DNA of 26,129 nucleotides from a virus, in the IMG/VR virus record IMGVR_UViG_3300035698_013996, positions 1-26,129 of that record. One strand, given 5' to 3'. Made by a program: the position numbers and the translations under genes. The number at the start of each line of letters is the position of its first letter. Position 1 is the stretch's first letter. Shown piece after piece: positions 9,570 through 22,190 of this stretch. Under the pieces are notes generated by a model that ran no database searches, was not told where the DNA came from, and saw nothing but the letters and a program-made list of their open reading frames with translations.

Positions 9570-10220
9570 TTACCAATAAACATGATTTTTATTATTCAAA
9601 ATTAAATAGTCATTACATTCTTTAAATCCACCTTTAAAACTCATTTTGGCTTTTATAGGATGATCTGATTCAAAAACAAAATGCTTTGTAGTATCTATAT
9701 ATTTCTTAAAGCTAATAGCATTTTTTCCCCACAATAAAAAACATATATTTTGTTTGTTTAAAGATAAATCATTAATTACTTTTTCAATTAATGATCTCCA
9801 AACAAAAGCATGACTATTGGGGATTCCTTGTGCTACAGTTAATGAAGTATTTAATAATAATACTCCTTGTTTAGCCCAAGTTTCTAATGTACAATCTTTA
9901 TCTAAATTGAGCGTACCTAAATAACAATCTTTTAAACTATATTTTATAAAAGACAAGCTTGGAGGTAGCTTGTCTTTAAATTTTATAGGTACACCAAAAG
10001 CTAGCCCGTTTGCTAATCCGGGATTATAATAAGGATCTTGTCCTAATATTACTACTTTTACATCTTCAAATGGTGTTAATTCAAAAGATTTTAATACATC
10101 TTGTTTATTTGGATAAATATCTTTATTAATGTAAGTGTATTTATGTAATGTTTTTATCTTCTGTATATAAGATACCATCTCTTCTTCTTTGGGAAAATTC
10201 AGGTTTAACATCATAATCAA
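9570..10220 (-). CDS. ung: Uracil-DNA glycosylase, family 1 (Ung)
   Basis: It removes uracil from DNA. The water-activating motif reads GQDPYYNPG at 60-68 with catalytic D62; the usual His after the Tyr (GQDPYH) is a Tyr here. The LLLN/LTV uracil-pocket strand is at about 121-129, and the minor-groove loop HP at 187-188 keeps the catalytic His (H187) although the usual HPSP is HPIK. The length, 216 aa, is normal. The annotated ATG at 10220 lies 80 nt inside the upstream gene. Even the last usable Met (residue 15, 10178) still overlaps by 38 nt, so the overlap is real. Together with dUTPase and ThyX it indicates a phage that keeps uracil out of its DNA. UDGs are common in crAss-like phages. 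Confidence 0.9.
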   Translation of the reverse strand: MIMMLNLNFPKEEEMVSYIQKIKTLHKYTYINKDIYPNKQDVLKSFELTPFEDVKVVILGQDPYYNPGLANGLAFGVPIKFKDKLPPSLSFIKYSLKDCYLGTLNLDKDCTLETWAKQGVLLLNTSLTVAQGIPNSHAFVWRSLIEKVINDLSLNKQNICFLLWGKNAISFKKYIDTTKHFVFESDHPIKAKMSFKGGFKECNDYLILNNKNHVYW

Positions 10221-10992
10221 ACATTTTATAAGATATTTTTTCTTTTTCTAAATCAAAAAATTCGTAAAGATCCAAGTGACTTGGAATTTTCTCATTTAAA
10301 GATTTTTCCATTTCTCTTCTTAACTCTTCACTTTTGTATAACACTTTATATATTTTCATTTTAGTAAGATCAACTAGTTTGTTACTAGTCAACTTGTGTA
10401 GAAAATGAAAATAATTATTTATTATATCTTTGGACGATTCTGATATACTTGAGTATTTAGAATCTATTATTAACATTACGTCTTTTAAAATACTCTCAGA
10501 TATACTATATTCTAAGAAAACGTAATCATTTTTATATGTAGTATTTATCAATTTATCATTAGCTATTTTACTAATAAAAAGAGTAAAATCTTCTATAATT
10601 TTATTATTATAAACTAACACTAAACTATGTCCAGTAGCTTTAGGTAGTAAATAAGAATTGATAAAACAAAATTTTTCTATATTTAATTGTTCAGGAGTAA
10701 GAATCAAAGGACAAATAAAGAAATTACTAGTTCTTGATCTATCTAAACTTAAAATAACCTTATTTGGGTGTTGTGAATTTTTTGTTATGTAATTTATTTG
10801 AAAATATATATCTTCAAAATCTATGTAAGACTTCAATTTAAAGCTAAAATTATTATTTGAAAAAGGATAAGGTTTTATAACTACTTCATCATCTGTATTA
10901 GATACAAAATACGAACTATTAGGTACTTCAATTATGAAATCCCTAGCAGTGCAGTACATTTTAACGTCTCCAAATTTTCTATAATAACCCAT
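10141..10992 (-). CDS. Hypothetical protein, 283 aa
   Basis: I do not recognise this protein. The N-terminal about 200 residues look beta/alpha mixed and rich in Ile, Asn, Ser and aromatic residues. The C-terminal about 80 are helical and charged, ending in an RRRDG-containing basic tail. There is no signal peptide, membrane segment or nucleotide-binding motif. Its start touches the stop of the 5' nuclease gene (shared base 10992), and its 3' end overlaps ung by up to 80 nt in another frame. It is therefore sandwiched between two DNA-repair/replication enzymes and probably co-translated with both. A role in DNA metabolism is only a guess from position. Confidence 0.65.
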   Translation of the reverse strand: MGYYRKFGDVKMYCTARDFIIEVPNSSYFVSNTDDEVVIKPYPFSNNNFSFKLKSYIDFEDIYFQINYITKNSQHPNKVILSLDRSRTSNFFICPLILTPEQLNIEKFCFINSYLLPKATGHSLVLVYNNKIIEDFTLFISKIANDKLINTTYKNDYVFLEYSISESILKDVMLIIDSKYSSISESSKDIINNYFHFLHKLTSNKLVDLTKMKIYKVLYKSEELRREMEKSLNEKIPSHLDLYEFFDLEKEKISYKMFDYDVKPEFSQRRRDGILYTEDKNIT

Positions 10993-11813
10993 TACCAGTT
11001 GCTTATCTTGTGAAGTATTGGTGGAACTTTTAATATTTCATCTCCAAATAAAAGAAGTTCAAATGCTTCTTTGGTGAATTCGATTCCCAGTTCTCTAAAT
11101 AAATCTTGCTCGTTTCTCAAAAGATAGACAAGTCTAAAATTCTCTGCAAATTTATAAATAGATTCTGGAAAATCAAAATTTTCCATGTAAGTTCTTAGGG
11201 TTACATGGATATAATTTTTAGTAAATACTCCTTCAAGCAATTTATCGGCTTTTTTATCACCTATTCCAGGAACTCCTTGAATATTGTCAGTAGTATCTCC
11301 CATTAAACATTGTTTAAACAGGAATTTTAAAGCATCTTCTTCTGAAGTTTCAACTATAGTACTTTTGCCATAATTAAAATGAAGTCCAATTGCTTGGTTT
11401 AATACATCTTTATCAGGGCTACATATAATGGTATTTATGTTTAACTCCAGATAATACTTTTTTATAAGATGCTGAAATATTAACACATTATCATCAGCTT
11501 CTAAACCATCATAAACAAAAGCAATATTGTTTAAATAAGCTTGTAATCCATAAAATTTAGGAGGTCTTAAAGTGTTTCTATTTCTATTGCCTTTATAAGG
11601 CTTTGTTTGAGCTACAGAGTGTCTAAAAGTTCTGCTCTTAGACATAAATAATATATAATGATCAGAATTAGAATCAATCACCATTTGATTGATTCTTTTC
11701 TGAGTCTCCGCTATTAATTCTTCCATAGACAGCTCAACATTGTCTTGGGAATAAGTACTATAATACAATAAACTATCAGCATCTATCAATGCTATTCTTT
11801 CTCTACCTGTCAT
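10992..11813 (-). CDS. 5'-3' exonuclease / flap endonuclease (PIN-H3TH, T5 D15-like)
   Basis: This structure-specific 5' nuclease probably removes RNA primers and flaps, because the phage polymerase has no 5' nuclease domain of its own. Metal-binding acids appear in the expected order: D11 and D13 (LIDAD), E105/D107/D108 (EADD), D134/D136 (SPDKD), and D173/D176 (GDTTD). The last group runs straight into the helix-3-turn-helix DNA-binding segment VPGIGDKKA at about 181-189. A basic YKGNR helical-clamp element lies at 73-77. The length of 273 aa matches the phage family. Immediately upstream of the ATG is a perfect AT-only inverted repeat (11814-11840). Confidence 0.9.
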   Translation of the reverse strand: MTGRERIALIDADSLLYYSTYSQDNVELSMEELIAETQKRINQMVIDSNSDHYILFMSKSRTFRHSVAQTKPYKGNRNRNTLRPPKFYGLQAYLNNIAFVYDGLEADDNVLIFQHLIKKYYLELNINTIICSPDKDVLNQAIGLHFNYGKSTIVETSEEDALKFLFKQCLMGDTTDNIQGVPGIGDKKADKLLEGVFTKNYIHVTLRTYMENFDFPESIYKFAENFRLVYLLRNEQDLFRELGIEFTKEAFELLLFGDEILKVPPILHKISNW

Positions 11814-11848: not shown

Positions 11849-12580
11849 TTAATCTTTTACACAATTTAATTCTTCTTCTAGTAATTGTTTAAATTTTGCT
11901 TTTAAATCATCTTTATTAATATTATTGCTATATACAAATTTCAATATGTGTTCAGGATAATTTCCACTAAATCTTTCTATTTTAAAATTATTAAATTGGA
12001 TACCATCAACATTAGTGTCATCAAATAATACACTAATTTCTTTTAGTGGAAAATCTTCACGTACATATAATGTTTTTGGTGTATTCAAATTTAATATATA
12101 TTTAATGATATTTAAAGAACTATCAGAATAACTATCATGTCGAACTAAATGAGGGTATGTAACATAATAATCTTTTGAACATATTGTAGGGTCTAAATGA
12201 TCTACATCATAAATAATAAGAGAATTTTTTAAGTTGTTATATTCAAATTTAACTTTTTCTTTATTAATTGCATTAAAAACTAAAATGTAATCTAAACAAT
12301 ATTCATAATGTTGAATATTTCTTTTTGAATACTCTACAATATTAAGATGTATGTTTGAAAAAAATGAAGTAAAAGTTATTTTACCTGTTTTTTTCTTTAA
12401 AACACTAGTATTCCTTATACTTTCATGAAAATTCATATAAGATGCCTTATTATATCGAAATAAAGTATTGTTATTCATGTAACTAAAAAACAAATTGTTA
12501 AATAATATACTACTTTCATCATTTAACTTTAAGATTTTTAGTATTGTACTTGGTGAGCTAGATATTGCAAATTCTAACAT
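11849..12580 (-). CDS. Unknown 243-aa protein next to the E1-like gene
   Basis: Its ATG at 12580 overlaps the 3' end of the E1-like gene by 7 nt, so the two are translationally coupled, and it is probably part of the ubiquitin-like module. The sequence is rich in Asn, Ile, Tyr and Ser. There is a beta-rich middle (about residues 65-135) and a Cys in a TIC segment around residue 133, followed by a Tyr/His-rich stretch (about 138-150). The C-terminus is a charged helix. In PRTRC cassettes the partner gene of ThiF is protein B, which has been linked to the E2/UBC fold. I cannot find convincing E2 motifs by eye, so E2-like activity is only a hypothesis. Confidence 0.65.
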   Translation of the reverse strand: MLEFAISSSPSTILKILKLNDESSILFNNLFFSYMNNNTLFRYNKASYMNFHESIRNTSVLKKKTGKITFTSFFSNIHLNIVEYSKRNIQHYEYCLDYILVFNAINKEKVKFEYNNLKNSLIIYDVDHLDPTICSKDYYVTYPHLVRHDSYSDSSLNIIKYILNLNTPKTLYVREDFPLKEISVLFDDTNVDGIQFNNFKIERFSGNYPEHILKFVYSNNINKDDLKAKFKQLLEEELNCVKD

Positions 12581-13329
12581 ACTACATCAATTAATTCAAC
12601 CTTTTTAGAATCTTCTAAATAGTTTTCCATATAATACAACTGTTGAATACAAAAAGTCATATGAATAGTCATCTTTAATGGAACAGGCATTATACTAGTG
12701 CCCATCTTTTCATTATAACATAGATTAGTTGCTAAAGCCATCATATTAGCTGCAATACTAGCTCCACAATGAGGAGTAGATTTAAAATTACAAGGAACAT
12801 CAGGAATACTAGCATCTTCAAACAATGAACTATCATAATATTCTATTTGTCTATCAAATAAAGGTTCTTTCTTAGACAGTATAAATATATGATAATTCTC
12901 CGCTTCAGCCCTTCCATCTATAAAATAATTTAGCTCTTTATTACTTAAAAAATCCATAAATATTTCCCTTCTAGCTGACATATTATCTACACAAGAAAAT
13001 ATAATATCTTTCATCATTGACTTAGACTTTTTGTCAATATTTGAGAAACTACATTTTTTTAATGTAATATGACATTCACTACCCATAGCCTGTATCAATT
13101 CTTTAATTGAATCTGCTTTATATTCACCAATTTGATCATTTAAATATAATTGCCCTGATACATTATGTTCTTCTATTTTATCATAATCAATCAAAATTAT
13201 ATGATTAAAAGATTTGCTTAAATAATATGCTAAATAAGAACCTATATTTCCTAATCCTACTACGCTTGCACTAGAACGAGAAATTAAAGAATACCATGTA
13301 GCTTCATTAAATCTTATTGTACTTGACAT
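12574..13329 (-). CDS. E1/ThiF-like ubiquitin-activating enzyme
   Basis: This is a Rossmann-fold adenylating enzyme expected to activate the C-terminal glycine of a ubiquitin-like protein with ATP. It has GLGNIG at 25-30 (GxGxxG), the DYD acids at 48-50, N56 and Q60 of the NxxRQ region, the GEYKAD segment with the conserved Lys at 71, and CVDNMSARR at 113-121 with D115. The candidate catalytic Cys is C188 in TPHCGAS, at the position equivalent to the Cys of MoeB/ThiF and Uba enzymes. Two features are odd: the Arg of NxxRQ is Gly here (NVSGQ), and the CxxC zinc pairs of MoeB/ThiF are absent. At 251 aa it is the compact size of PRTRC ThiF proteins. It lies 17 nt after the JAB gene and overlaps the 243-aa gene. 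Pathway inferred from neighbours. Confidence 0.88.
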   Translation of the reverse strand: MSSTIRFNEATWYSLISRSSASVVGLGNIGSYLAYYLSKSFNHIILIDYDKIEEHNVSGQLYLNDQIGEYKADSIKELIQAMGSECHITLKKCSFSNIDKKSKSMMKDIIFSCVDNMSARREIFMDFLSNKELNYFIDGRAEAENYHIFILSKKEPLFDRQIEYYDSSLFEDASIPDVPCNFKSTPHCGASIAANMMALATNLCYNEKMGTSIMPVPLKMTIHMTFCIQQLYYMENYLEDSKKVELIDVVC

Positions 13330-13346
13330 AATTATATTAATTTATT

Positions 13347-14459
13347 TTACATTGTAAATTCTTCTAAATCTGAATATTGTTCTAATAATTTTTCATCAGG
13401 ATTTATTTCTAAATCATTAAAAACAATTAATAAAAATTCTGCTATATGAGATCCTTCTTTAGAAACTGCTTCTATTTTAACTAATTGTTCAATTTTGGTA
13501 AAAAACTCATTGCTTATCATATGAGCATTGTTATTACAAAATTTTATTGATTTTTTAATAGCATCTTTATTAAATAATCCTTTTGAATTAAGAATTCTAC
13601 AAGTAACTTTTGGAATATTCAAGTTTTTATACATGAAAGAAATATGAAGATACTCTTCTATAGCAGGTCTATTTTTAAATAAATCTAATGGACTTGTCTT
13701 AGTGCTCAATGCATGTTCTAGCATTTGAACTATGAAACTATTAAAGTTAAATCCTTTTTCCATATATGGAGAACTTTTATAAGATAATGCTAACTGCTTA
13801 TTAGCAATTCTTTTCTTAGCTTCCTCATTCAACATAGAAAATTTATCTGTAATAGTATCTTTTGTTATACTTATTTGCATTTCAGAATAAAAAATTACCT
13901 TATCTGTATTCACTAAAAATGAAACTTCAGTATCATTTTCGTTGTTTATAGTATAATCATTTTTTCTACTAGTAATGCATATTCTTGCAGTGTATCTTCC
14001 AGCATAATTTACTATTAAAGATATATAATATAAATGATCGGGAGCATTCATTTTTAACTCATCATTATCTTCTCCACTAAAAAACGTAGACATACTATGA
14101 TGTGTATGAATTAACCCTACTCTGTTATTTAAACTATCATCTAATAACTCAGGATATTCATCCATCAAACCAGAAATATGATCACTTACTTTAGCTTCCG
14201 TGAAAGAAGCGTCTCCTGTGTTAAAAGGTGTCATTCCTTTTACCTCAAACATTAATTGTTCTATATCCTCTAAAGAATTTAGACTACCTGCTAACTTCTT
14301 GAGTACTATAAATCCACACCATTCTGTATTAGCAGGGCATGAAATGTGAGACTTAGTTATCATAACTAAAACAGCATCAGTAACTAAAAGCTGAGGCAAT
14401 TTTTTTAATTTCATGTCAATTAAAACGTTGGTACTTTTTTCTTTATAAACAGCTTCCAT
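13347..14459 (-). CDS. JAB/JAMM (MPN) metallopeptidase with C-terminal extension
   Basis: This is a zinc isopeptidase of the Rpn11/AMSH/PRTRC-A type, expected to trim or remove ubiquitin-like proteins after a Gly-Gly. The complete JAMM motif is present: H118-x-H120, seven residues, S128-x2-D131 (HTH ... FFSGED). The upstream catalytic Glu is E46 in the TEWCGF strand. The JAB domain occupies about residues 20-190. Residues 200-370 form an unrecognised, probably helical extension, unusual for stand-alone bacterial JAB proteins of about 150-250 aa. The gene sits 15 nt downstream of the 531-aa gene and 17 nt upstream of the E1-like gene. With the Ubl candidate at 16143-16745 this gives the Ubl/JAB/E1 trio. 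It is not a tail-assembly JAB, since no tail genes or NlpC/P60 domain are nearby. Confidence 0.88.
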   Translation of the reverse strand: MEAVYKEKSTNVLIDMKLKKLPQLLVTDAVLVMITKSHISCPANTEWCGFIVLKKLAGSLNSLEDIEQLMFEVKGMTPFNTGDASFTEAKVSDHISGLMDEYPELLDDSLNNRVGLIHTHHSMSTFFSGEDNDELKMNAPDHLYYISLIVNYAGRYTARICITSRKNDYTINNENDTEVSFLVNTDKVIFYSEMQISITKDTITDKFSMLNEEAKKRIANKQLALSYKSSPYMEKGFNFNSFIVQMLEHALSTKTSPLDLFKNRPAIEEYLHISFMYKNLNIPKVTCRILNSKGLFNKDAIKKSIKFCNNNAHMISNEFFTKIEQLVKIEAVSKEGSHIAEFLLIVFNDLEINPDEKLLEQYSDLEEFTM

Positions 14460-14474
14460 AATTGTTTTTTTTTA

Positions 14475-16070
14475 TTATTGTGTTTGTAATTGTTCTGTTG
14501 ATTTTTCTAATAATCTATTCATCAAAGAATAGAAATTCTGTGTTAACTGTATTTTAATATACAGATTATTTAAAAAGGCATCTGGTAATTCTATAAATTC
14601 AGATGTATTATACAAAGTTTTTTCCTCAAATGTAGTTGTGTTAATGCTGTAAAAATCTGAAGCGCTTTTTATATCGTTAAATACATTTTTAATTACGTTC
14701 AAAGGAATCCTACACACAAGTTCATTACTTTCTTTACTATTATTGGTTTCTTCTTCTTGTGAACTATCGTTATTGACTGTATCTTTTAATAATTGTTTAT
14801 CTTTTAACATTATTGAAGCAGTTATAAAATAACCTAAACTTTCAATAAGTTTTAAAGATGAATCTGCTTTTTCAAAATGATTTTGTATATGAATATCTAA
14901 TTTATTATATCTTAATGAAGCGCTTTGTCCTAATTGATGTTTTGACAATATTTGACTTAAATCGTCACATAATATATTAGATTCACAAACTAAACTTGTA
15001 AGACTGTCTATAGTCAATCCAAAACAATTAAGAAAATTTAGTAAAATGGTACCTAAAGCAAGTCTTTTATAATTTCTTTTTTTATAAGTACTTTTTACAA
15101 AATCTATTATATGCTGTTTATAATAATCTTTTATTCTTCTGTAAGGGCCACCAAAATAGCTCTCTTCTTTTAAAAAATCTTCATATTGTAAATAACTACT
15201 AAATATTTCCAGATAATTTAATTCATCATTTATAAGACTTTCTTTTGAATTAACCATTAATTGTAATGAACCTTCTATGTTAACTAAAAATGGCCTCCCA
15301 TTAGTACAAGCTTTATAAGTTTTAAATTCTATTAAACCTATTTGAGTTGTGTATCTAGCAGATAAATGTGATTGTACATAATGATTAAAATCTAAAGTTT
15401 TGCATCCTATATTTAAAAATAAATTTTCTTTGTAATATGAAGAATTATCCATTTTAGAACCAATAAAATAAACAAGACAGTAGCTATAATTATATAAATT
15501 AATAGAAAGATTATTTAAAGGATTAATGCTTTTAATAGAACTTTTATATTCTACATCTAATATCATAGTAGGAAAGAAAGCTTTATTATTAGCACCAGAA
15601 GAACATTCAATTATATCGTATATAATTCTAATATTAGATTTTATGTTATCTAGTAAAAAAGATGCTTGTAAAAATTTAAAATATTCATGAATTTCATTCC
15701 ATCTTTTTTCAAATAAACCACTAATACAAATTTTTAATAATTTAATTAAAATACCTTTTATATATTCAAGATTAGTATATAAATAAACTGAATCATAATT
15801 AGTCACATAGAATGTTCCTCTTTTAGTATCAAAGTCTTTTGATATTATAACCTCGGTATATTGACCTTTAACCCACACTAATTTGAGTTCAGGGTCAGCT
15901 TCTTCAATATAATTACGTACTATACTACTTTTACTTATTTCTATTAATTCACCTTCAATTACTAATATTTTAACCCACTTTTTTATTAAATATTTAAAAA
16001 CATTTGGATGCTTATAATTTATATATCTTAAAACATCATCACAATTATTTGTATTTATATTAAAATCCAT
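14475..16070 (-). CDS. Unknown 531-aa protein of the ubiquitin-like module
   Basis: I do not recognise this large protein. It is rich in Asn, Ile, Lys, Leu and Tyr. Residues about 1-130 are mixed alpha/beta, 165-300 look beta-rich, and 310-420 look helical. A low-complexity acidic linker (Gln/Glu/Asn/Ser, about 428-446) leads to a final helical domain of about 80 residues. No P-loop, metal motif, membrane segment or Cys-rich zinc binding site is evident. It lies between the Ubl gene (with a terminator-like hairpin between) and the JAB gene, 15 nt before JAB. In PRTRC cassettes a large protein (F) also neighbours the Ubl and JAB genes, so it may be a functional analogue, for example a substrate receptor or E3/E2-like factor. 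That is positional inference only. Confidence 0.7.
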   Translation of the reverse strand: MDFNINTNNCDDVLRYINYKHPNVFKYLIKKWVKILVIEGELIEISKSSIVRNYIEEADPELKLVWVKGQYTEVIISKDFDTKRGTFYVTNYDSVYLYTNLEYIKGILIKLLKICISGLFEKRWNEIHEYFKFLQASFLLDNIKSNIRIIYDIIECSSGANNKAFFPTMILDVEYKSSIKSINPLNNLSINLYNYSYCLVYFIGSKMDNSSYYKENLFLNIGCKTLDFNHYVQSHLSARYTTQIGLIEFKTYKACTNGRPFLVNIEGSLQLMVNSKESLINDELNYLEIFSSYLQYEDFLKEESYFGGPYRRIKDYYKQHIIDFVKSTYKKRNYKRLALGTILLNFLNCFGLTIDSLTSLVCESNILCDDLSQILSKHQLGQSASLRYNKLDIHIQNHFEKADSSLKLIESLGYFITASIMLKDKQLLKDTVNNDSSQEEETNNSKESNELVCRIPLNVIKNVFNDIKSASDFYSINTTTFEEKTLYNTSEFIELPDAFLNNLYIKIQLTQNFYSLMNRLLEKSTEQLQTQ

Positions 16071-16089
16071 TATTAAATTATAGATAAAA

Positions 16090-16122
16090 ATAAAAGCCCC
16101 AGAAATTATCTGAGGCTTTTAT
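16090..16122 (-). terminator. Terminator-like hairpin between the Ubl gene and the 531-aa/JAB/E1 genes
   Basis: A 14-bp stem with one mismatch pairs ATAAAAGCCCCAGA at 16090-16103 with TCTGAGGCTTTTAT at 16109-16122 around a 5-nt loop. In the minus-strand transcript it is followed by TTTTATCTA. It lies 20 nt past the stop of the Ubl gene and only 19 nt before the ATG of the 531-aa gene. A separate downstream promoter would have to overlap the hairpin, so partial readthrough is likely. Confidence 0.75.
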
Positions 16123-16142
16123 CTAATTAATTAAAAAACAAT

Positions 16143-16745
16143 TTAATATCCTGAATGCTTTAAATCACCCTGCACTTTGTTAAGCTCTTTATTTAAAAAA
16201 GAATTATCTTCTTTAGTAGCATACGCGCTAAAAGTGTAAAGATTAGTAATTATATTCCGGATTTCATTTGAATTTCTCAACAAAGGTAATGCTTCCGATA
16301 ATTCATCTTCTAAATTATTTAACTCTTGAATAAAAGCAGAATCATTATCTAATTTAACACATTCTTCTTTTTTATCCTCTCCTTTAACAGGAAGTAATTT
16401 TAAAGAATTTAACTTTGTTTCTAAAGCATCTTTACTCATTCGAGTATACCCAGGAACTGCATTTTCTTTAGCTATTTCTTTTAACTCTTTTGTAGTTAAA
16501 CCTCCTTTAATTTTTCTTGAAGTAACAAACAAAGTTAAACTTTCTTGCTGAGGTAATCTTGCATCAGGTAATTCTAATGAAAGATTACTTCCTCTTATGA
16601 CTGCTCCTTTGTTTTCAAAAGTAACATTTTTATCTATTTTAAAGATAGCATCTTGAAGTTCTTTAAAAGTAAAAGCTTCAATGTTTTCAAATGTCTTAGG
16701 AGAACCTAAAGAAGTGTCAACAATAATAATTTTTTCGTAAATCAT
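16143..16745 (-). CDS. Putative ubiquitin-like (beta-grasp) protein with internal Gly-Gly and SAP-like tail
   Basis: Residues 1-82 fit a ubiquitin-like beta-grasp layout: strand (EKIIIVDTS), helix (FTFKELQDAIFKI), strands around AVIRG and LSLELPDA, then a last strand (SLTLFVTSRK). They end in KIKGG with Gly81-Gly82. The Gly-Gly is not C-terminal. A helical LTTKELKEIAK ... SKDALETKLNSL segment follows (about 83-115) and looks like a SAP/HeH/Rho-N-type DNA-binding motif. An acidic helical tail reaches residue 200. The JAB peptidase encoded nearby could cleave after GG to release a mature Ubl. It is the last gene of the SSB-primase-Ubl unit, 25 nt after primase. The Ubl call rests on predicted strand pattern, GG and the E1/JAB neighbours. 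The alternative is an unrelated SAP-domain protein with a chance GG. Confidence 0.6.
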   Translation of the reverse strand: MIYEKIIIVDTSLGSPKTFENIEAFTFKELQDAIFKIDKNVTFENKGAVIRGSNLSLELPDARLPQQESLTLFVTSRKIKGGLTTKELKEIAKENAVPGYTRMSKDALETKLNSLKLLPVKGEDKKEECVKLDNDSAFIQELNNLEDELSEALPLLRNSNEIRNIITNLYTFSAYATKEDNSFLNKELNKVQGDLKHSGY

Positions 16746-16770: not shown

Positions 16771-17730
16771 TTATTTTTTGTGTAGTAACCATAACATAAA
16801 ATTTTTCGTATTAATTATTCCATAACAAAAGCTATAATCAGATATATCTTTTAGTGACAAAGGTATAAAAATATAAGGTAAATTCACTCTTTCCATAGCA
16901 GCTAATCCTGCTTTATCATTGTCAAAAAATACAATAACTTCTTCAAATCTCATTTTTAAAGAATTCATTATATCTTTATCTAATTCAGAATTTTCACTAG
17001 GAGGAGCTACAGAGTTATAACCTAATTCATGTAAAACCATTATATCTTTTAAACTTTTAGTAATTATAAGTAACTTACCTTCTTTTGGTAATTGATGGTA
17101 TCCCTGCCAATCTTTACTCTTTAAATTACTAATCCATTTATATTTTTTAGGTCTTAATAGATTTAATATCTTAAATTTATTTATACCTACCTTGTACACA
17201 TAGGAATCTTTACATATAAATCTTTTTGTATTTATCCAGTAATATAACAAAGGGTACACTTCATAATATTTTAACGTTTTCAATGAAATACCATAATCAA
17301 ACCAATATTTTATATTAGTAGAATTCCAATAACCTGTCTTAACCTTAATTATCTTAGTTTTCGTACTAGGAATAGGTAAGTCATTAATTATTACAAATTC
17401 TTTATTTTTAATTAAAGTATCTATATTAAAATCATTAGCAATAATATTAAGTGCTTCTGAGTATGTACAATTAAACATACATTTTACAAACTCAAAGCAA
17501 TTCCCTTTTTTGTTAGTACCAAAATCTTTAAATCTCCATTCTCCAAATTTATATCCATAAATAAAAGAAGGAGTACTATCATTAGTATCTCCTTCTTTTT
17601 CGTTTCTTATTGGTGAATTTGATAAAGTATCTGGTTCTATTTTTGAATAATACTTAAAAATTCTTTGTGCAGATACTACTTTTAATATAATTTTAGAGGT
17701 TACATTTACTTGTTTTTTAGTAGTAATCAC
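16771..17730 (-). CDS. DnaG/T7-like DNA primase with Toprim domain
   Basis: It makes RNA primers for phage replication. The C-terminal Toprim core is at about residues 218-290: strand and loop KLLIITKSLKDIM, then the metal-binding pair D270/D272 in VFFDNDKAG. The conserved Toprim Glu (usually in an EG motif before the helix) appears to be replaced, the loop reading ITKSLKD. At the N-terminus (about 30-100), STPSF ... WRFKDFG ... GNCFEFVKCM resembles the CHC2 zinc-binding domain of primases, but most zinc ligands are missing. At 319 aa it is shorter than bacterial DnaG and has no helicase domain; the DnaB-like protein at 19990-21183 may partner it. It lies between SSB and the Ubl candidate, 26 nt after SSB. 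Primase is the best call, though polymerising activity cannot be judged by eye. Confidence 0.78.
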   Translation of the reverse strand: MITTKKQVNVTSKIILKVVSAQRIFKYYSKIEPDTLSNSPIRNEKEGDTNDSTPSFIYGYKFGEWRFKDFGTNKKGNCFEFVKCMFNCTYSEALNIIANDFNIDTLIKNKEFVIINDLPIPSTKTKIIKVKTGYWNSTNIKYWFDYGISLKTLKYYEVYPLLYYWINTKRFICKDSYVYKVGINKFKILNLLRPKKYKWISNLKSKDWQGYHQLPKEGKLLIITKSLKDIMVLHELGYNSVAPPSENSELDKDIMNSLKMRFEEVIVFFDNDKAGLAAMERVNLPYIFIPLSLKDISDYSFCYGIINTKNFMLWLLHKK

Positions 17731-21729: not shown

Positions 21730-21957
21730 TTATTCTCTTTTTAAAATTATAATGTTATCAAGTGTTATATCTACAACTTTTTTCTTTCTGTCCTCTTCAA
21801 CAAAATTAAAAAGTTCATCAGTATCTTTATAATCAGAAGTAGGCTCAATTTTTACTACAAACCCCATATTTACAAGCGCTACATTTAGAATAATTAGTAA
21901 ACGAGTTGTTGTAATGTTCTTGCTACCTGATAACGTAATAGTCAATTCATTCTTCAT
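21730..21957 (-). CDS. 75-aa paralogue A, P-loop-like fragment with degenerate loop
   Basis: This is a tandem paralogue of the adjacent 75-aa gene: identical length and about 47% identical by hand alignment, with matching blocks LSG, the SDYKDTDELF region and a C-terminal IILK. The layout is a beta strand (LTITLSG), a loop, a helix and a second strand (VVKIEP). The loop where its partner has GKT reads SKNITTTR, so any nucleotide-binding ability is probably lost. It lies 1 nt before the 182-aa gene. Function unknown. Confidence 0.65.
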   Translation of the reverse strand: MKNELTITLSGSKNITTTRLLIILNVALVNMGFVVKIEPTSDYKDTDELFNFVEEDRKKKVVDITLDNIIILKRE

Positions 21958-21962
21958 AATTT

Positions 21963-22190
21963 TTATTCTTCTTTTAAAACTATAGTGGTTTTAAGTGGTA
22001 TGTCTTTAATTGCTTCGTCCATACTATTATCAACTAAACGAAAAAGTTCTTCAGTGTCTTTATAATCAGTGTTAGGAATAACTTCTACATCAAAATTTAA
22101 GTTTAAAAGCACCAAATTCAAAATAGCTAATACATGAGTTTTTCCATTGCTTCTATCTCCTGATAAAGTAATAAGCAGTTTGTTTTTCAT
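21963..22190 (-). CDS. 75-aa paralogue B with P-loop-like GxxxxGKT
   Basis: Tandem paralogue of the gene at 21730-21957. Residues 6-30 read as a strand (LLITLSG), then G11-x4-G16-K17-T18, then a helix, which is a Walker A-like pattern seen at the N-terminus of nucleoside kinases and other P-loop proteins. It is followed by a strand FDVEVI and the TDYKDTEELF segment. At 75 aa it lacks space for Walker B and a full NTPase fold, so it may be a stand-alone fragment, a degraded NTPase or a nucleotide-sensing accessory. It lies in the replication operon between the SF2 helicase and the 182-aa gene. Confidence 0.65.
   Translation of the reverse strand: MKNKLLITLSGDRSNGKTHVLAILNLVLLNLNFDVEVIPNTDYKDTEELFRLVDNSMDEAIKDIPLKTTIVLKEE

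Follow-up and report, generated by a model that had tools for sequence, protein, structure and literature searches.

What would a phage do with a set of genes that resembles machinery for attaching a ubiquitin-like protein (Ubl) to other proteins? The question is raised by IMG/VR virus record IMGVR_UViG_3300035698_013996, a linear record that was analysed over its whole length of 26,129 bases (the window). Between the genes for a primase and a 5′ nuclease, five tightly packed open reading frames (ORFs) lie on the minus strand, encoding in this order a Ubl, a protein called B here, a JAB/JAMM metallopeptidase, an E1/ThiF-like enzyme and a protein of 243 amino acids (aa). The DNA polymerase of the window has 33–38% identity to Steigviridae (Crassvirales) and 44% to a Leptolyngbya phage. 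The original prediction, made from the window alone, had seen in these ORFs a Ubl, JAB and E1 module among the replication genes of a crAss-like phage, and this is borne out: all five are present where it placed them, as a tight minus-strand operon. Our reading, to which we give a probability of about 0.62, is that the phage encodes its own Ubl-conjugation system and uses it in host takeover or counter-defence. Judged from its sequences and models, the operon itself is likely to be conjugation machinery.

The Ubl, a protein of 200 aa, consists of a beta-grasp domain that ends in a Gly (residues 1–82), followed by a tail with a Rho_N/SAP-like motif (residues 83–108) and helices. Its ubiquitin-like fold is confidently modelled. 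In the AlphaFold2 (AF2) model, the predicted local distance difference test (pLDDT) is about 95–98 over residues 1–70 and about 96 for the domain, with the elements in the order beta-beta-alpha-beta-beta. The best matches of this model in the PDB by Foldseek are ISG15, ubiquitin and SUMO, and VIA-align gives a Z of 7.8 to 1ubq, placing ubiquitin residues 1–76 on model residues 4–82 and Gly82 on ubiquitin Gly76. As the highest VIA-align rows also include other beta-grasp folds (FERM, DIX), the fold alone is no proof of Ubl function; this is carried by the invariant Gly and the neighbours. Gly82 is Gly in 79/79 homologues, preceded by Ser in 67, Ala in 7 and Gly in 2 of them (motif K-x-K-[S/G/A]-G). 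A beta-grasp protein ending its domain in Lys-Gly-Gly had been predicted; the fold stands, but most relatives have Lys-Ser-Gly, and the last Gly alone never varies. This Gly is never the final residue. Between 1 and 217 residues follow it, and in 11 homologues the chain stops 1–5 residues after the Gly (natural short forms end ...KVKSGF or ...KIKSGK). Being invariant and never terminal, Gly82 marks a precursor architecture, which fits a role of the JAB in maturation.

The tails themselves differ among the homologues (Rho_N, SAP, ribosomal L7/L12-like), which means that the conserved function does not lie in the tail; that of the window matches Pfam Rho_N at 1.9e-4, below the cut-off. A family hidden Markov model (HMM) built without the window Ubl detects it at 2.4e-19. 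Scans with Pfam, PHROG and PADLOC gave nothing for the Ubl domain or for protein B, and the profiles of both gave only chance matches against PDB sequences. In phage cr106_1 (NC_055871, L006:6377-7580), an HNH endonuclease ORF splits the Ubl gene directly after ...KKIKSGKF and the tail follows in an ORF of its own, so that domain and tail are naturally apart. In another of the scanned homologues, the tail matches the ribosomal L7/L12 C-terminal domain (3e-10); that it is of the cr126_1 type (L009:8846-9772) is a guess.

The E1-like enzyme matches Pfam ThiF at 1e-18, and the best match of its family profile in the PDB is UBA5 (1.8e-14), which acts in a protein-conjugation pathway. It has the motifs GxGxxG (residues 25–30), D48/D50, N56, K71, D115 and Cys180. 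Seven residues (G25, G27, D50, N56, K71, D115 and C180) are kept in 87/87 homologues, and D48 and R6 in 86/87. The ATP-site residues GxGxxG, D48/D50, K71 and D115 had been predicted correctly, but C188 had been put forward as the catalytic Cys; it is ruled out by being Cys in only 28/87 homologues, and the invariant C180 is the candidate instead. In three loci (L222, L223 and L233), the E1 gene is broken by insertions of about 0.5–1 kb in an otherwise intact operon; these are probably introns or homing elements.

The JAB carries the canonical JAMM signature, E46 together with H118-x-H120-x7-S128-x2-D131. Each of these residues is found in 84/84 ungapped homologues, which confirms the full metal site proposed for it. 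The Pfam Prok-JAB match (6e-4) is below the curated cut-off, and the solved structures closest to the family profile in the PDB are CSN5 and archaeal JAMM1. The JAB is predicted to mature the Ubl and to strip it from its targets.

Protein B is probably an E2/UBC-like conjugating enzyme, a role held with moderate confidence because of the structural neighbours of its family model and two conserved residues. The model was made from a shorter orthologue (L070, 338 aa; pLDDT 88, predicted template modelling score 0.74) and has a UBC-like helix, a beta-meander, a Cys loop and helices. Nearly all of its 50 best VIA-align rows are E2, UEV or RWD, the best with a Z of 6.0 over 133 residues, which is below the level of a secure match. 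Among 83 family members, H235 is conserved in 97% and C255 in 98%. The window protein is divergent and is missed by a plain family HMM built without it. By hhalign, it aligns to the family built without it with a score of 42.6 (E 2.6e-5), pairing C255 with the family Cys; none of 60 shuffles reached this score (maximum 23.6). A BFVD search with B gave significant matches only to uncharacterised crAss-like proteins, with two giant-virus E2s at E about 0.27. Of the two proteins left unrecognised in the original prediction, B thus probably turns the trio into a trio plus E2, and the 243-aa protein is still without a family. Family scans of it gave no matches, and the idea of a conserved fifth member was rejected: Steigviridae and relatives have a family at that place, to which the window protein does not detectably belong (hhalign score 10, below shuffles).

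Together, the four proteins would work as a reversible tagging cascade. The JAB would cut the Ubl precursor after Gly82, releasing the mature Ubl and the tail. The E1-like enzyme would then adenylate the Ubl C-terminus and capture the Ubl on Cys180. Protein B, the E2-like member, would take the Ubl over on Cys255, and the Ubl would be joined to amines of target proteins. Finally, the JAB could take the Ubl off again.

Relatives were sought among annotated phages and 80 IMG/VR loci, family models were built, and 96 ThiF-anchored loci were searched, some of which are the same phage in two collections. The E1 was found in 96 of these loci, the JAB in 93, B in 89 and the Ubl in 87, and the order Ubl-B-JAB-E1 in 86/96. 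Phages with this order are Steigviridae (crAss001 gp79-gp76), Flavobacterium phages and environmental phages. In an independent JAB-anchored scan of 80 loci, all four genes occur in order in 72, and most of the others are cut by the contig end. From both scans it follows that JAB and E1 are not found apart in these phages; an occurrence of the JAB and ThiF genes independently of each other or of the Ubl, which had been named as the outcome that would speak against a common module, is not seen in the related phages. Operon order and catalytic residues are kept across phages with about 20–30% identity. A scan of genome contigs gave three contigs, one of which (L097) has the whole operon in a Clostridium metagenome-assembled genome. 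Elsewhere, in the jumbo Xanthomonas phage PhiXhv-15 (L016:6890-10264), a ThiF gene adjoins the gene for an 892-aa protein with the E2-like string IHPHM...GSLCLGS; this may be a separate phage E1-E2 pair.

The position of the operon bears on its use. The interval between the primase and uracil-DNA glycosylase (UDG) genes was surveyed with a UDG-anchored scan and all other loci, in a tally that counts intervals and does not account for kinship: 49 intervals contain the operon, 23 contain rIIA-rIIB, 32 are under 1 kb, 11 contain other genes and none contains both modules. PHROG models confirm rIIA and rIIB in the tested examples. On whole records, rIIA is absent in 25/25 operon-bearing phages and detected in 5/5 rII controls, and the E1 is absent in 18/18 rII-bearing records (several of them fragments) and detected in 3/3 controls. 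The window shares its next genes with the rIIAB phages, i.e., those for the 5′ nuclease (HMM from rIIAB loci, 3e-69), the 283-aa flanking protein and UDG. In the sister phage cr116_1, for example, the interval holds rIIA and rIIB. Operon and rIIA-rIIB thus occupy the same slot in sister phages in a mutually exclusive way; they differ in that the proteins are unrelated (no window protein has a PHROG rII match) and rIIA-rIIB has no Ubl chemistry. The rIIAB homologues of five diverse E. coli phages counter RexAB immunity and are otherwise dispensable (PMC11879866).

Two slots deserve further mention. Beside rIIA-rIIB of cr116_1 (NC_055882, L111:4300-4548), an 82-aa ORF matches the Ubl-family tail but has no Ubl domain; it may have been left behind when the operon was replaced. 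The slot of cr108_1 (NC_055878, L110:13279-20335) holds genes for an amidoligase, two glutamine amidotransferases, a COOH-NH2 ligase and an ATP-grasp protein. This set may be a further module that modifies peptides or proteins.

The original prediction had suggested reversible protein modification during DNA replication. In such a scheme, the Ubl would be reversibly put on single-stranded DNA-binding protein (SSB), primase, polymerase and UDG, as SUMO or ubiquitin is on PCNA. The operon does share its strand with the genes for SSB, primase, 5′ nuclease and UDG, among which it lies, and the PRTRC operons compared below travel with ParB-type genes, SSB and topoisomerase genes following in one plasmid. 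However, the slot can be filled by rIIAB or the amidoligase/ATP-grasp set, or be nearly empty, with the same replication genes still in place, and in FpV4 UDG adjoins the primase, with the operon just outside. This exchangeability fits host takeover or counter-defence better than core replication, and a role in replication, which finds no specific support, is rather unlikely. From the slot exchange we infer that the operon tags proteins of the host or the phage in the service of takeover or counter-defence, a role that we put at slightly less than even odds.

Several points weigh against a Ubl-conjugation system used in this way. Exchange shows a common niche and not a common function, and the 32 short-gap loci have neither module. 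No E3 or proteasome partner was seen. The Ubl homologues mostly end in Ser-Gly and not in Gly-Gly, and the E1 is without the usual Arg of N-x-x-R-Q, this residue being Gly in 72/87 homologues and never Arg. As to protein B, besides its sub-secure Z, a three-dimensional alignment of the Cys was not seen, and by Foldseek the E2 fold of the family model is not significant (best RWD E 0.51, UFC1 E 0.96).

Another use of the same chemistry is sulfur transfer. ThiF-family E1s with Ubls such as ThiS, MoaD and TtuB work as sulfur carriers. By analogy, the E1 would adenylate the Ubl, the Ubl would carry a thiocarboxylate used to modify a nucleotide, tRNA or DNA, and the JAB would mature the carrier, a task that has been suggested for JAB proteins in some bacteria (PMC1779556). 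Yet neither the operon nor the E1 contains a rhodanese, desulfurase or thiolase, the E1 is without conserved zinc-site Cys pairs, and protein B with its conserved Cys would have no place unless as acceptor. A sulfur carrier is therefore improbable.

The conjugation system that we favour has counterparts in bacteria, and the first of these is PRTRC, operon type 6d of Iyer et al. 2006, with a predicted Ubl, E2-like protein, JAB and E1 (PMC1779556). In eight annotated PRTRC plasmids, the order is ParB-E-C(Ubl)-F-B(E2-like)-A(JAB)-ThiF, some being without an annotated A, and C-(F)-B-A-ThiF parallels the phage order. In a profile comparison, for which four unrelated phage families served as negative controls, hhalign relates the phage E1 to PRTRC_ThiF (98.9%, E 1e-17) and the JAB to PRTRC_A (64%, E 7e-5), whereas homology is not detectable between phage Ubl and PRTRC C (0.2%) or between the two B proteins (0.6%). 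Cys-x-Gly is common to the two E2-like proteins, whose Cys are paired in an alignment below significance. The phage Ubl has a tail predicted to be cleavable, whereas most PRTRC C proteins end in Lys-Gly, and the Arg finger of the E1 differs. The window E1 scores 42.6 bits against TIGR03736 (PRTRC_ThiF; cut-off 144.75), and 0/23 relatives are above the cut-off. The PRTRC F profile has no match among the phage proteins compared. Neither ParB nor protein E is annotated beside the operon in 12 phages, and the prE profile has no match; whole phage genomes were not searched for ParB. Since E1 and JAB are remote relatives and Ubl and B are not significantly related, the phage operon has a similar layout and probably similar chemistry without being a member of PRTRC. 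The likeness to PRTRC cassettes drawn in the original prediction therefore holds for the layout, but not for proteins B and F. A divergent PRTRC-type ThiF (128 bits, cut-off 145) was met near a ParB gene in Geoalkalibacter plasmid pGSUB1 (L100:5935-6684).

A second group of counterparts consists of bacterial defences. Bil and Bub are defence operons that bring together a Ubl, an E2, a JAB-type deconjugase and an E1, and the phage operon joins the same kinds of protein. It differs in being phage-encoded, in lying in a replication block and in having a single-domain E1 without fused domains. In a search for homologues of BilA-D, only the E1 gave a match, to BilD (3e-6, partial), the other three phage proteins giving none; the E1 profile matches BilD and BubCD weakly, and PADLOC has no match for Ubl, JAB or B. 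Type II of the cyclic oligonucleotide-based antiphage signalling system (CBASS) has Cap2 and Cap3, and Cap2 is a fused E2-E1 that attaches cGAS itself (PMC10097602). The likeness lies in E1-E2 activity plus a JAB peptidase; the difference is that no nucleotidyltransferase or effector is encoded in the phage operon. In lambda and T1, the tail proteins TAPI-TAPK combine a Ubl with a JAB (PMC1779556). There, as in the phage Ubl, a Gly is followed by a linker and a C-terminal domain, probably cut by the JAB, but these are tail-assembly genes without E1 or E2.

The phage genes might instead interfere directly with a host Ubl defence, with the JAB stripping conjugates or the Ubl acting as a decoy. 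Defences of this type exist in bacteria, Bil being another besides CBASS type II, and the phage E1 matches the PADLOC E1-E2 and BilD models weakly. However, the whole set is conserved, including the Ubl maturation site and the E1 Cys, and a decoy or stripper needs neither E1 nor B, which makes interference quite doubtful. Finally, a chance assembly or decayed genes without function, to which the weak Pfam score of the JAB and the absence of one for Ubl and B might point, is refuted by order and catalytic residues kept at about 20–30% identity and is hardly credible. The features of the locus are collected in Table 1.

Table 1. Positions in the window of the operon genes, their key sites and the neighbouring genes.
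Feature	Position	Strand	Basis
Ubl precursor, 200 aa	16143..16745	minus	AF2 fold, ISG15/ubiquitin/SUMO matches, family HMM
Ubl Gly81-Gly82, predicted mature C-terminus	16500..16505	minus	Gly82 invariant, 1ubq superposition
Protein B, 531 aa, probable E2/UBC-like conjugating enzyme	14475..16070	minus	hhalign to family, family model
Protein B candidate active site, His235 to Cys255	15306..15368	minus	Family conservation
JAB/JAMM metallopeptidase, 370 aa	13347..14459	minus	Pfam Prok-JAB, PDB profile matches, hhalign to PRTRC_A
JAMM motif H118-x-H120-x7-S128-x2-D131	14067..14108	minus	E46 at 14322-14324
E1/ThiF-like Ubl-activating enzyme, 251 aa	12574..13329	minus	Pfam ThiF, UBA5 and PRTRC_ThiF profile matches
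E1 candidate catalytic Cys180	12790..12792	minus	Cys in 87/87 homologues
243-aa protein, operon end	11849..12580	minus	Start overlaps E1 stop by 7 nt
DNA primase, upstream edge of exchangeable slot	16771..17730	minus	PHROG primase 1.6e-39
5′ nuclease, first gene downstream of slot	10992..11813	minus	PHROG exonuclease 3.7e-48
283-aa flanking protein	10141..10992	minus	HMM from rIIAB-bearing loci 1e-8
Uracil-DNA glycosylase (UDG), downstream slot edge	9570..10220	minus	UDG family alignment, HMM 1.6e-93

Outside the operon, two adjacent 75-aa ORFs (21730-21957 and 21963-22190) look like a tandem duplication.

In the accessible literature, i.e., without subscription papers and supplements, no Ubl system is described in crAss-like phages, which does not prove priority, and the main text of the crAss001 and Crassvirales genome papers does not mention ThiF, JAB or ubiquitin. 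It is a tentative view that Crassvirales and related phages carry a complete self-encoded Ubl cascade and use it as a weapon for takeover or counter-defence that can be exchanged for rIIA-rIIB. In bacteria, full E1-E2-Ubl-JAB cascades are known as defence or plasmid systems, and a phage-encoded one would reverse the usual direction: if true, the phage makes its own tool of the chemistry that bacteria use against phages in Bil and CBASS. The exchange with rIIA-rIIB offers a handle on rII function outside E. coli. Functions can now be offered for four crAss001 genes that are labelled ‘thiamine biosynthesis’, ‘metalloprotease’ or hypothetical. The operon is conserved in cultured gut crAss-like phages, and the proposal can be put directly to the test in crAss001. 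After trypsin, the remnant left by most family members would be Ser-Gly and not Gly-Gly, so that standard K-GG enrichment would miss the conjugates.

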